64,000 nt of DNA. Source: Asticcacaulis machinosus (GTDB lineage Bacteria; Pseudomonadota; Alphaproteobacteria; Caulobacterales; Caulobacteraceae). The notes under the pieces were generated by a model. That model did not search any database. It was not told the origin of the DNA and was given only the letters and a program-made list of their open reading frames with translations. This document shows positions 3,186-50,452 of this stretch, in pieces. The position numbers were made by a program, and so were the translations under genes. The number at the start of each line of letters is the position of its first letter. Position 1 is the stretch's first letter. Where the stretch lies: contig NZ_JAQQKV010000001.1 of NCBI RefSeq assembly GCF_028550435.1, positions 1,674,001 through 1,738,000 on the forward strand, given 5' to 3'.

Positions 3186-3280
3186 ACACTCACATATCCG
3201 TAATGACCGGACATTTAATTCAAAGCAGAAAATTTCGCAGGGCCGCCCCTAGAAAATTTTCTTCGATCCAAAGGGGGCAC

Positions 3281-5731: not shown

Positions 5732-5887
5732 GCCCCCACCACCATTCGCTTTGCTCATGGTCCCCCTCCCCAGGCACTTTAGTGCACTACCGCCGTGCTA
5801 CTTGAGCGCTTTGGGGAGGTATATAACCTCTGATACTCCCCCGGCGTGCCGGGGGAGGTGGCAGCCGCAAGGCTGACGGAGGGGGGC
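5732..5887. repeat. Modular palindromic repeat, inverted pair (element R1)
   Basis: The stretch between ubiG and prmC holds two copies of the GGGGAGG element in opposite orientation. The minus-strand copy (5732-5820) reads CCTCCCC..GGGGAGGGGGACCAT..ATGGTGGTGGGGGC. The plus-strand copy (5836-5887) has hairpin CTCCCCCGGC..GCCGGGGGAG, then GCAGCCGCAAGGCTG, then GACGGAGGGGGG. The bases just before (5684-5700) contain GCTAACGCTTCG, a loop sequence also found in elements R3 and R7. Confidence 0.85.
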
Positions 5888-11734: not shown

Positions 11735-11792
11735 CTCCTGCCCCGTAAACGGGGAAGGTGGATTTTTGCGTAAGCAAAAAGACGGAAGGGGC
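11735..11792 (+). repeat. Palindromic repeat, left flank of the DUF559 gene (element R2)
   Basis: The plus-strand copy has hairpin CCCCGTAAACGGGG, the link AAGGTGG, a second hairpin TTTTTGC-GTAA-GCAAAAA, then GACGGAAGGGGC. It ends 4 bases from the stop codon of the DUF559 gene and is the inverted partner of 12163-12213. Confidence 0.85.
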
Positions 11793-11795
11793 AAA

Positions 11796-12176
11796 CTATA
11801 AATCCATCAACCTCTGCCGCGCCAAGGCTATGACGCCTTGGGCGATCTCGTCAGGAGCTTCCAGCAAATCTCTGGCAATGATCCTGTGAGTTTTAATGCC
11901 CTGTTCCTTAAGCCACTCATCGCGAATTTCATCGTGCACATGCTGTTCAGCATGGGTGTGGATTTCGCCGTCCACCTCGATCGCCAGCCGCACTTTCGCA
12001 CAATAAAAGTCGAGAATATACTGGCCAATGGCGTGCTGACGCCGAAAACGCAAGCCATCCCCCAAATCCCCACGTATCCGCATCCACAACCAAACTTCCG
12101 GCTTGGTCATGTCTTTGCGCAACCGGCGTGCCGTGACGATTTTTGCATCTGCCCGCAAGTTTCCCCCTTCCACCAC
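11796..12176 (-). CDS. DUF559 (Vsr-fold) endonuclease embedded in repeats
   Basis: The product has up to 126 residues with the DUF559 landmarks RRLRKDMTKPE, RFRRQHAIGQYILDFYC, the acidic LAIEVDGEIH and EWLKEQGIKTHRI. The fold is related to very-short-patch repair and restriction endonucleases; D in FYC-upstream LDF and E-x-D in IEVDG are the likely metal ligands. The GTG start at 12176 and its AAGGGGG ribosome site lie inside the right-hand repeat, so residues VEGG are encoded by repeat DNA; a TTG a few codons later is an alternative. Both ends of the gene are bracketed by inverted copies of the dispersed repeat. A role in spreading that repeat is inference. Confidence 0.85.
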   Translation of the reverse strand: MVEGGNLRADAKIVTARRLRKDMTKPEVWLWMRIRGDLGDGLRFRRQHAIGQYILDFYCAKVRLAIEVDGEIHTHAEQHVHDEIRDEWLKEQGIKTHRIIARDLLEAPDEIAQGVIALARQRLMDL

Positions 12177-12213
12177 TTCGTGGTCCCCCTTCCCCGTAAA
12201 CTGGGAAGGAGAT
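12163..12213 (-). repeat. Palindromic repeat, right flank of the DUF559 gene (element R2)
   Basis: Read on the minus strand: hairpin CTTCCC-AGTTTAC-GGGGAAG, link GGGG, hairpin ACCACGAAGTGGT, then GGAAGGGGG. It overlaps the 5' end of the DUF559 gene and supplies its ribosome-binding site and GTG start codon. Confidence 0.85.
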
Positions 12214-12214
12214 T

Positions 12215-12613
12215 CTAGATAAAATCTATAAGGTAAGCCACCAGCGGATCATCAGCAGGGGGCATGGGGTAGGTGCGCATATCCTTGGGCTTGACCCATT
12301 TGATGGCCTGATGCTCAATGGCTGTGGGTTGACCTTCCCAGCGGCGGATCAGGTACAGCGGCATCAGCAGGTGAAACGTCTCATAGGTATGGGACGCGAA
12401 CACAAACGGCGCCAGACATGCCTGTTTGACGGTGATACCCAGTTCTTCCTGCAATTCACGGATCAGCGCGGCTTCGGGGGTTTCCCCGGCTTCGACCTTG
12501 CCGCCCGGAAACTCCCACAGGCCCGCCAGTTGCTTGCCCTCCGGCCGCTGAGCAATCAGCACCCGCCCGTCATCATCCACAAGGGCCGCCGCAACGACGA
12601 GGACGGTTTTCAT
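12215..12613 (-). CDS. mutT: MutT-type Nudix hydrolase
   Basis: This 132-residue protein cleans the nucleotide pool, most likely hydrolysing 8-oxo-dGTP. The complete Nudix box is present (GGKVEAGETPE, then RELQEELGI) and the N-terminus KTVLVVAAALVDDDGRVLIAQRP matches MutT. The ATG at 12613 overlaps the stop of the upstream vapC-like toxin gene by 4 bases. Conserved order in relatives would put argJ directly upstream, so the toxin-antitoxin pair looks inserted between argJ and mutT, and mutT is probably now expressed from the vapBC promoter or by read-through. Confidence 0.93.
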   Translation of the reverse strand: MKTVLVVAAALVDDDGRVLIAQRPEGKQLAGLWEFPGGKVEAGETPEAALIRELQEELGITVKQACLAPFVFASHTYETFHLLMPLYLIRRWEGQPTAIEHQAIKWVKPKDMRTYPMPPADDPLVAYLIDFI

Positions 12614-12993
12614 ATCGCGCTCACAATGTCGGTTTGAGAAAAATCGTTGCCGACGAATAACAGCGGGCAATTATGGGTCTTGGCGGTAGCATAGGAAAAA
12701 CAATCCATTAGATTAAGCGAAGCTTTGTGCCGCCCCTTGCCCCAAACCATATAGGCCGCTGTGACCAGTTCGGCGATTTCTTCATCGACAGGAACAATTT
12801 CAATATCCAGCCGATCCATCAGGGTCTGCAAATCGGAAAGTATCCCGCGATGCCCGGCCACAACAGACACCTCGGCCAGTATAGCGGCTGGCATAAGGAG
12901 TTTTTCGGCTGTATCGAGTACATTCATACATGTGGGCGCCGCTGGCTCTGTCAATACAATCGACATCAAGGCCGAACTGTCGATGACGATCAT
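12610..12993 (-). CDS. vapC: VapC-type PIN-domain toxin
   Basis: The 127-residue PIN domain has the expected acidic residues: D5 in VIDSSAL, E in AILAEVS, D in LNLMDCFSYA and D in VGNDF. VapC toxins are metal-dependent ribonucleases, usually cutting tRNA or rRNA. The Ala-rich SALMSIVLTEP start is typical. It overlaps the antitoxin gene upstream and mutT downstream by 4 bases each, so all three are probably one transcript. Confidence 0.9.
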   Translation of the reverse strand: MIVIDSSALMSIVLTEPAAPTCMNVLDTAEKLLMPAAILAEVSVVAGHRGILSDLQTLMDRLDIEIVPVDEEIAELVTAAYMVWGKGRHKASLNLMDCFSYATAKTHNCPLLFVGNDFSQTDIVSAI

Positions 12994-13247
12994 TCGGGCA
13001 TACCGTCATCACCATAAAGAAAATCAGCTGAATGAGCCGCATCGGGGCCTGGCAGCACCTTGTCTTTCACCGCATTCTGGAAATCCTCCAGAATTTTACG
13101 GCGCTGTTGTGGTGTAAGCTTCGCCTTGACCGGCACCAGACGCACCGCCGCGTGGCCGTGACGGGTCAAAACAACCTCATCGCCCGCCTCGGCACGGCGC
13201 ACGAGATCCGTCAGTTGAGCCTTGGCATCGGTAACAGAAATAAACAT
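12990..13247 (-). CDS. vapB: Phd/YefM-type antitoxin (VapB)
   Basis: The 85-residue protein has the Phd/YefM N-terminal fold (FISVTDAKAQLTDLVRRAEAGDEVVLTRHG), which binds DNA, and a charged C-terminal tail that would wrap the PIN toxin. A strong ribosome site, GGAGG, lies 7 bases before the ATG. The promoter upstream contains a perfect inverted repeat (13265-13289), consistent with autorepression by the toxin-antitoxin complex. Confidence 0.9.
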   Translation of the reverse strand: MFISVTDAKAQLTDLVRRAEAGDEVVLTRHGHAAVRLVPVKAKLTPQQRRKILEDFQNAVKDKVLPGPDAAHSADFLYGDDGMPE

Positions 13248-22521: not shown

Positions 22522-22691
22522 CCTCCTCCCCTGCAACGCGGGGGAGGTGTCAGCAAGGCTGACGGAGGGGGCAAAGCGCCTGTCAATTACCTAAAATCAG
22601 GGCAAATATAGATATTCCGAAATGCCCCCTCCGTCATGCCATAAATGGCATGACACCTCCCCCGCAGCGCTAACGCTTGCAAGGGAGGAGG
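22522..22691. repeat. Modular palindromic repeat, inverted pair (element R3)
   Basis: The left copy (22522-22572) reads CCTCCCC..GGGGGAGG-TG, TCAGCAAGGCTGA, CGGAGGGGGC. The right copy (22624-22691, minus strand) has the same frame with inner hairpin TCATGCCATT-TATGGCATGA and a longer first hairpin containing GCTAACGCTT. About 50 bases separate them. The pair fills the space between the Rieske gene and the DUF3126 gene and may terminate both. Confidence 0.9.
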
Positions 22692-29383: not shown

Positions 29384-29423
29384 CCCTCTCCCCGCTCGCG
29401 GGGAGAGGGTTAGGGTGAGGGGC
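29384..29423. repeat. Single palindromic repeat (element R4)
   Basis: CCCTCTCCCC-GCTCGC-GGGGAGAGGG is followed by TTAGGGTGAGGGGC. It starts 3 bases after the adenosyltransferase stop. This short type (no inner hairpin) resembles a motif I know from many proteobacterial genomes. It can act as a 3' hairpin for both converging genes. Confidence 0.75.
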
Positions 29424-34689: not shown

Positions 34690-34747
34690 GCCCCCACCAC
34701 CCTTTTGCTACGCAAAACGGCCCCCCTCCCCAGTAAACTGGGGAGGT
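34690..34747 (-). repeat. Single palindromic repeat (element R5)
   Basis: Read on the minus strand: CCTCCCCAGTTTACTGGGGAGG, GGGG, inner hairpin CGTTTTGCGTAGCAAAAGG, then TGGTGGGGGC. It lies between the ends of two converging genes. Its first hairpin shares AGTTTAC with the right flank of the DUF559 gene. Confidence 0.85.
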
Positions 34748-36474: not shown

Positions 36475-36592
36475 CCTCCCTATGGAATGGGGAGGTGTCA
36501 GCAAGGCTGACGGAGGGGGCGAAGCTGACAGCAAAATACCCCTCCGTCTTGCCGCTACGCGCCAATCCACCTCCCCACTCCGTAGGGAGGAG
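36475..36592. repeat. Modular palindromic repeat, inverted pair (element R6)
   Basis: The left copy reads CCTCCC..GGGGAGG-TG, TCAGCAAGGCTGA, CGGAGGGGGC, with the inner hairpin identical to that of R3 left. The right copy, in reverse, has inner hairpin TTGGCGC-GTA-GCGGCAA between GGTGGA and GACGGAGGGG. About 18 bases separate the two. It lies between the lipoprotein terminator and the end of the TlpA gene. Confidence 0.9.
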
Positions 36593-50306: not shown

Positions 50307-50452
50307 AGAACCTCCCCTGATTTCAGGGGAGGGTGGCAGACGATCCTTTAGGATCGGGTGACGGGTGGGGTTAAATCCCGCTGAAGATTAACCCCCTCTT
50401 CTGTTTCAGCTTTCGCGTAAACAGAAGCTCCCCCTGCATCAGGGGGAGTTCT
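50307..50452. repeat. Full-length palindromic MITE-like element (R8)
   Basis: A 146-base unit with ends AGAAC and GTTCT. It has hairpin CCTCCCCTGATTTCAGGGGAGG, inner hairpin CGATCC-TTTA-GGATCG, the core GGTGGGGTTAA..GAAGATTAACCCCC, inner hairpin CTTCTGTTT..AAACAGAAG and closing hairpin CTCCCCCTGCATCAGGGGGAG. R7 has the same order with different but still paired inner hairpins. Confidence 0.9.

Follow-up and report, generated by a model that had tools for sequence, protein, structure and literature searches.

Inverted three-armed repeats around a DUF559 nuclease gene of Asticcacaulis machinosus: a candidate family of self-spreading DNA

Here we describe a nuclease gene of the DUF559 family that lies between two inverted copies of a three-armed repeat in a 64,000-nucleotide stretch of Asticcacaulis machinosus DNA (the window). 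DUF559 genes and such repeats are associated with one another in this genus and in many other bacteria, and together they have the appearance of a self-spreading DNA family not described before, the movement of which we infer. On balance, we favor the reading that the DUF559 nuclease drives the spread of the repeats and that the two constitute a widespread miniature mobile DNA with its own nuclease. An earlier note on the window had proposed an autonomous form bearing the gene and gene-less pairs resembling miniature inverted-repeat transposable elements (MITEs), comparable to repetitive extragenic palindromes (REPs) and REP-associated tyrosine transposases (RAYTs) but with an unrelated nuclease. 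This proposal is supported by tests of gene flanks, of co-occurrence and of repeat flavor.

The gene (11796-12176, minus strand) is enclosed by inverted units at 11737-11791 and 12164-12209, each of which runs toward the gene in the order arm1, loop, arm2, variable stem-loop and arm3. Arm1 consists of pyrimidines, CCTTCCCC with one change per copy, and arm2 is its complement GGGGAAGG. The locus comprises the following features.

11737-11758, plus strand: outer hairpin of the left unit (arm1, loop, arm2), sequence CCTGCCCCGTAAACGGGGAAGG
11760-11783, plus strand: variable stem-loop 2 of the left unit
11784-11791, plus strand: arm3 of the left unit, GGAAGGGG, the mirror of arm2 GGGGAAGG, directed at the gene
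11796-12176, minus strand: DUF559 nuclease gene, 126 amino acids from GTG, with an alternative start TTG at 12158-12156
12164-12171, minus strand: right-unit arm3, reading GGAAGGGG on that strand, which could serve the TTG start as a ribosome site
12172-12184, minus strand: stem-loop 2 of the right unit, ACCACGAAGTGGT, containing the listed GTG start
12188-12209, minus strand: outer hairpin of the right unit, CCTTCCCAGTTTACGGGGAAGG on the minus strand

The stop codon (11796-11798) is located 4 bases beyond arm3 of the left unit. At the other end, the listed start falls within the right unit, with the GTG inside its stem-loop and the TTG directly after the G-rich arm3. These coordinates agree with the earlier note, which had placed the gene between a plus-strand and a minus-strand copy of the repeat, the left copy 4 bases past the stop and the GTG start within the right copy. 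The left unit misses the strict hairpin definition used below by one mismatch. The PF04480 (DUF559) profile assigns the window protein to this family (E 2e-26; 92.5 bits against a cut-off of 20.6).

Inverted flanks are a general property of DUF559 genes. We compared the 400 bases upstream of each gene with the reverse complement of the 400 bases downstream and took a score of at least 13 as the threshold. Across genus and order, inverted similarity was detected at 106 of 121 DUF559 genes; these were drawn from 140 matches, leaving out 18 matches of the low-scoring tail, some of them partial or broken, and G023:C261. Chance framing is ruled out by the controls, given that the threshold was reached by 1 of 72 ordinary open reading frames (ORFs) of 90-250 amino acids from the loci of the A. 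machinosus genome and the window, and by 2 of 605 shuffled flanks. Among named genomes, 62 of 80 DUF559 loci had inverted flanks, these being the best 80 of at least 570 confirmed candidates (L128 is apparently the same locus as L095). They span Alphaproteobacteria, Bacteroidota groups, Patescibacteria (e.g. Uhrbacteria), Nitrospirae, Acidobacteria, Planctomycetes, Myxococcota and others, and a recognizably equal architecture is present, for example, in Pontibacter, Prevotella and Uhrbacteria. The same was observed at 20 of 30 loci that represent other families of the class and are the best matches from 30 of its 62 matching genomes. The expectation of the earlier note that no DUF559 gene should lack repeats at its edges thus holds for most genes and not for all: 15 of the 121, 18 of the 80 and 10 of the 30 stayed below the threshold (two of the 30 with clipped flanks). 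The A. machinosus genome itself has ten DUF559 genes, of which eight pass the test, with a repeat flavor that varies from gene to gene; L018 falls just short at 12.5, and its units are visible by eye. Runs of two or three neighboring DUF559 genes occur at L047/L108, L048, L039/L057 and L038/L075 (G024, G031, G023 and G009; G and L numbers designate genomes and loci).

The abundance of the repeats tracks the presence of the gene. We counted hairpins in 193 genomes of the class, where a repeat excess was defined as at least 15 matches to CTCCCCN{2,20}GGGGAG above the reversed control pattern, and, for another flavor (CCTCTCCN{2,16}GGAGAGG, excess at least 10), in 199 genomes of the phylum sample. 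DUF559 matches were present in 62 of the class genomes and 80 of the phylum genomes, including 16 and 18 genomes, respectively, with weak matches that were tallied apart. Within the class, 23 of 46 strongly matching genomes showed the excess, as did 1 of the 16 weakly matching ones and 2 of the 131 without a match; in the phylum sample, the corresponding counts were 44 of 62, 0 of 18 and 6 of 119 (Fisher p about 4e-14 and 5e-21, values that overstate independence because the samples partly overlap and the genomes are related). When the family of A. machinosus was set aside, excess remained in 21 of 44 class genomes having DUF559; in the phylum sample outside its own class, it occurred in 14 of 20 genomes with DUF559 compared to 5 of 91 without.

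Repeat flavor and nuclease lineage go together, although not strictly. The flavor AACTCCCCCTN5AGGGGGAG (AACTCCCCCT type) has 17 to 50 matches, on both strands, in G000, G002, G004, G012 and G013, and zero matches in the other 20 of 25 genus genomes. Among the 121 tested genes, its cognate gene is found in G000 (twice), G002, G004 and G012; G013 contains two decayed copies, one without 37 middle codons and the other a partial profile match that looks broken. Over 172 genes, protein similarity correlated with repeat similarity (Mantel rho 0.26; permuted maximum 0.09). The correlation was also present in 171 same-genome gene pairs, with a rho of 0.17 that was reached by 7 of 500 permutations.

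A third arm and the mirror code that it follows are new findings overlooked by the earlier note. Read in the same direction as arm1, the stretch after arm2 corresponds to it at every position, G standing for C and A or T for T. To test this code we retained, out of 402 flanks, 298 distinct ones in which a strict pyrimidine hairpin is present, setting aside 104 that had no strict hairpin, were duplicates or were too short, and as a null we redistributed the stretches among units. Arm3 obeys the code perfectly in 213 of the 298 flanks (shuffled mean 76.5, maximum 93). The result persists in the multi-phylum subset (82 of 125; mean 25.7, maximum 32), after collapsing to distinct flavors (34 of 58; mean 3.8, maximum 12) and with one unit per named locus (46 of 73; mean 17.0, maximum 27). 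In the 237 units in which all C positions match, the base opposite an arm1 T is A in 194, T in 165, C in 20 and G in 12 cases, which places 32 of 391 T positions outside the code; examples with C are the GGGCGGGG arm3 of L095 and L105. Two other relationships were rejected. As a Watson-Crick partner of arm1, arm3 fits in 19 of 298 flanks, under the shuffled mean of 23.4, and none of the sets tried departs from the shuffled range. Taken instead for a direct copy of arm2, it fits in 50 of 298, somewhat above the shuffled mean of 33.9 (maximum 41), an excess confined to the own order (37 of 173 versus 17.3) and not seen in the multi-phylum set (13 of 125 versus 15.5).

In an antiparallel purine-motif triplex, the third strand places G on a GC pair and A or T on an AT pair. 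Arm3 follows this sequence rule, with G for C and A or T for T in parallel to the pyrimidine arm, and judging from sequence it may form such a triplex. To our knowledge, no DNA copying process produces a mirror image; neither simple duplication nor inversion yields one. Selection on a physical structure is thus the simplest reading of arm3. Synthetic polypurine reverse-Hoogsteen hairpins consist of two mirror purine stretches and a loop and form triplexes with a pyrimidine target (PMC5220335). Between arm2 and arm3, where a side stem-loop is present, pairing is kept and sequence is not: a stem of at least 5 bp is found in 119 of 162 segments of at least 12 bases, comprising 146 distinct sequences, compared to 134 of 810 shuffled segments.

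Beyond the DUF559 locus, the window contains additional units of the same architecture. Under the strict definition, a hairpin plus a coded arm3, the window has 11 units, of which that at 3246 seems fortuitous; reading the same sequence backwards gives 3, and none of 10 dinucleotide shuffles gives any. The following pairs and single units were identified.

22525-22688: gene-less inverted pair, with units at 22525-22570 (plus strand) and 22627-22688 (minus strand)
36475-36590: gene-less inverted pair, with units at 36475-36517 (plus strand) and 36540-36590 (minus strand)
50311-50448: gene-less inverted pair, two different flavors joined
5836-5885, plus strand: single repeat unit
29384-29422, plus strand: single repeat unit of CCCTCTCCCC flavor with a GGGTGAGGGG arm3 and without stem-loop 2
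34692-34746, minus strand: single repeat unit of CCTCCCC flavor with a GGTGGGG arm3

The three pairs are in accordance with the earlier note, which described other inverted pairs carrying a short spacer and no gene. Its count of seven other places for the repeat stands for the architecture and not for the sequence: the exact hairpin pattern of the window gene, CCTTCCCN{3,12}GGGAAGG, has a single site in the whole A. machinosus genome, namely, the right unit. The general hairpin CTCCCCN{2,20}GGGGAG has 243 sites in this genome versus 46 for the reversed control pattern. Because the pair at 50311-50448 combines two flavors, pairs appear to be open to mixing or reshuffling. At 12610-13247, separated from the DUF559 gene by one gene (mutT), two adjoining minus-strand ORFs resemble by eye a PIN-domain toxin and its antitoxin (VapBC-like).

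Gene-less pairs were further read in five genomes, where we found 17 facing pairs and one back-to-back pair. In the facing pairs, hairpins and arm3 are nearly constant per flavor, and the stem-loop and the central spacer vary in nearly every copy. Comparison of G002 with G012 over about 180 kb (about 91% identical) identified two places at which only one genome has a gene-less pair and a third place at which the pairs are of different flavor. At the site of the window gene, next to mutT, no DUF559 match lies within 5 kb of mutT in 24 genus genomes; of the 23 that were read (G012 excluded), G002 and G004 have a gene-less remnant and G010, G019 and G020 have gene-less pairs of other flavors. Several DUF559 gene loci are syntenic between relatives, and the gene of L013 has the opposite orientation in G004, where its flanks are conserved. 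Five genomes (G002, G011, G015, G017 and G018) share the position of the 493-bp L009 element, which is absent from G012, with 15 bases in its place. The comparison of empty and filled sites suggested in the earlier note gave pairs that differ in presence between relatives and no clean insertion site or target duplication, the best cases being too diverged.

Sites outside the genus were also considered. On a plasmid of Sphingomonas parapaucimobilis (L242), a framed DUF559 element is located between two genes of an NAD(P) transhydrogenase operon. A tblastn search with the window protein (1e-5) matched 27 of 72,556 plasmid records and 0 of 50,697 phage records, and no close empty copy was present among the plasmid neighbor records listed for two elements (15 of the 297 records matching one and 20 of the 84 matching the other). 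The DUF559 gene ycjD of Escherichia coli (L244) has units of CCCTCTCCC / GGGTGAGGG type on its 3' side, by eye, and pieces of the queried ycjD stretch recur at a median of 4 places per genome; these units are perhaps a fossil of the same repeat system. The sapF-ycjD-fabI stretch is covered to at least 80% in 3359 of 5426 E. coli genomes. It was discarded as a within-species test for empty sites, given that the three strains read that lack it have other genes there.

The window protein was modeled confidently by AlphaFold (pLDDT, the predicted local distance difference test, 92.9). An alignment of 37 sequences identified D56, E67, H73 and R85 among the invariant residues, with E27 and D69 nearly invariant. 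By structural comparison, the model most closely resembles 3hrl, a DUF559-type protein of Neisseria, followed by the homing endonuclease I-Bth0305I (3r3p; Foldseek E 4.6e-4, template modeling score 0.73 on the target), then by mitochondrial ribosome proteins and PvuRts1I, with Vsr (1vsr) at Foldseek E 0.042. Sequence profile searches agree in that they recovered I-Bth0305I (E 3e-4, annotated as 'mobile intron protein') and PvuRts1I. I-Bth0305I is one of the EDxHD homing endonucleases. Five Pfam families matched at E up to 1, namely, DUF559, a restriction-enzyme family, DUF2726, Vsr and a PvuRts1I-like family; the Vsr profile (PF03852) scored 14.2 bits against a cut-off of 27. The Vsr fold named in the earlier note is thus correct in broad terms, but the nearest solved folds are those of the Neisseria DUF559 protein and a homing endonuclease. 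We rejected a defense system, for which PADLOC gave only partial matches to DpdF (E 5.6e-7) and a methyl-directed restriction endonuclease (E 1.6e-5), and a known RNA family, as the window matched none in Rfam at gathering scores.

Among known systems, the closest resemblance is to REP doublets forming hairpins (REPINs) and their RAYTs. According to a study of these, they share with the system described here inverted palindromic doublets with a spacer, conserved ends, an enzyme gene beside the repeat and co-variation of enzyme and repeat, as well as dedicated chromosomal genes that are each distinct and present in one or few copies (PMC3116915). The gene-less pairs correspond to inverted doublets with a variable spacer. 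By contrast, RAYTs are tyrosine transposases of the HUH type and the enzyme here is a PD-(D/E)XK-type nuclease, and the repeats here lack the GTAG tag and have a third mirror arm and, in many flavors, a side stem-loop. Because it lacks both the HUH enzyme and the tag, we do not file the system under REP/RAYT, although it works like one. CGTC-tagged REPs are also dispersed palindromes of Alphaproteobacteria, mostly in head-to-head dimers, but the published description gives them 8-9 bp stems (A and T first) plus a CCA-like tail, without any associated transposase (PMC3733652). Compared by eye with that description, the repeats here differ by their pyrimidine and purine arms and by the third arm (PMC3733652). 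Some flavors have GACG before arm3, yet not as the unpaired end of an 8-9 bp stem with a CCA tail.

The nearest functionally known relative of the nuclease is I-Bth0305I, by fold and, together with PvuRts1I, by sequence profile. I-Bth0305I is borne by an intron, whereas the DUF559 gene here stands free between genes, framed by repeats and without an intron or intein. The mismatch endonuclease Vsr is broadly similar in fold, but the window protein stays under the Vsr family cut-off, and no neighboring methyltransferase was noticed, with no systematic search made. The nearest functional study that we found concerns another DUF559 protein, Caulobacter VsrA (CCNA_02930), which is behind the SOS response in cells without the methyltransferase ScmA; it is interpreted there as acting in mismatch repair, and the passages available do not mention flanking palindromic repeats (PMC12907096). 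Nothing on DUF559 genes framed by repeats was found in the open-access literature searched, and a prior description is possible.

We infer that the nuclease cuts the repeat and that the cutting spreads it. The transmissible unit would be the inverted pair of three-armed repeats, in a full form with the DUF559 gene between the arms and in a dependent form with a short spacer, on which the chromosomal nuclease would act in trans. The nuclease may recognize the folded unit, made up of the side stem-loop and of the hairpin with arm3 folded back onto it, and folding would take place when the strand is exposed, for example in replication. It would then cut at the folded unit, or at a site without the pair, and repair of the break would copy the pair into intergenic DNA. 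Every nuclease lineage would drift jointly with its own repeat flavor. It is a more tentative thought, and less likely than not, that the signal of this mobile DNA of many phyla is a natural intramolecular triple helix. In each repeat strand, the mirror-image arm3 would fold onto its own hairpin, a natural counterpart of the synthetic reverse-Hoogsteen hairpins, and a dedicated homing-type DUF559 nuclease would read this structure and spread the pair.

Several observations weigh against a spread driven by the nuclease. No movement of the repeats was observed, and there was no clean target-site duplication at the G002/G012 junctions, which at about 91% identity are too diverged. The absence of the L009 element from G012 probably represents a loss, given that G002 and four other genus genomes share the site. 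Near-identical dispersed gene copies are missing among the 171 same-genome pairs, the best non-tandem pair being about 76% identical. In the A. machinosus genome, the L012 gene lies beside an inverted pair and outside it. The window's flavor has 41 sites in G003 and 38 in G017 and is absent from the DUF559 flanks read there, and the five genomes of the AACTCCCCCT type are close relatives, so that its distribution may go back to one event or origin. At L317 (479-1349), it is a short-chain dehydrogenase (SDR) gene that lies between facing AACTCCCCCT units, in a layout as tight as at DUF559 genes; this gene is either other cargo or the outcome of two separate insertions. Finally, some genomes are rich in repeats without a DUF559 match. 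These are G005 (117 sites versus 8 for the control), G010 (66 versus 12) and G056 (84 versus 5), and further G042, G348, G245, G272, G277, G371 and G408; a second profile, applied with E up to 10 to G005, G010, G042 and G056 only, gave no DUF559 match. The earlier note had counted such genomes against its own proposal, and G005, G010 and G056 bear this objection out in part.

The repeat-rich genomes without a DUF559 match would be expected if another enzyme, such as an IS200-like transposase, spreads the repeats and DUF559 is a cellular nuclease for hairpin processing or repair, the gene of which is kept near its substrate. The similarly enclosed SDR gene of L317 is consistent with this alternative, as are CGTC REPs, common in Alphaproteobacteria and said to have no dedicated transposase (PMC3733652). 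It leaves unexplained, however, the specific framing of DUF559 genes (106 of 121 compared to 1 of 72 control ORFs) and the co-variation of flavor and protein. No other gene for an enzyme of mobile DNA was noticed framed in the loci read, with no genome-wide RAYT search made, and we consider this alternative quite unlikely. It is also conceivable, if unlikely, that the nuclease is a homing or retention enzyme that cuts alleles without the unit, such that repair from a sister or incoming copy restores gene and pair and new sites are rare accidents of repair. The catalytic domain of I-Bth0305I as the closest functionally known fold (profile E 3e-4, structure E 4.6e-4), the synteny of several gene loci and the combination of few genes with many repeats per genome all speak for homing. 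Yet the gene is free-standing rather than within an intron or intein, and the 243 hairpin sites for 10 genes in the A. machinosus genome require a spreading process that homing does not supply.

It seems very improbable, on the other hand, that the repeats are regulatory devices, such as terminators or providers of ribosome sites, which insert at gene ends and frame genes through selection for expression control. By eye, the G-rich arm3 directly precedes the start codon of several members, and the equally tight layout at the SDR gene of L317 would also suit such a role. Regulation, however, needs no inverted pair of similar units on both sides of a gene, and it does not explain the many gene-less pairs whose abundance tracks DUF559.

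In conclusion, we return to the reading that we favor, a DUF559 nuclease that drives the spread of its repeats. DUF559 is still a 'protein of unknown function' in Pfam, and if this reading is true, its job would be the spreading of its own repeats. Many G-rich intergenic palindromes from Alphaproteobacteria to Bacteroidota and candidate phyla would then gain one explanation and one enzyme, and the REP/RAYT way of life would have a second solution, unrelated to the first. What the mirror code directly predicts is physical, namely, a triple helix of DNA that serves as a genetic signal. Our findings also bear on the work on Caulobacter VsrA, the DUF559 protein behind the SOS response of a methyltransferase mutant.
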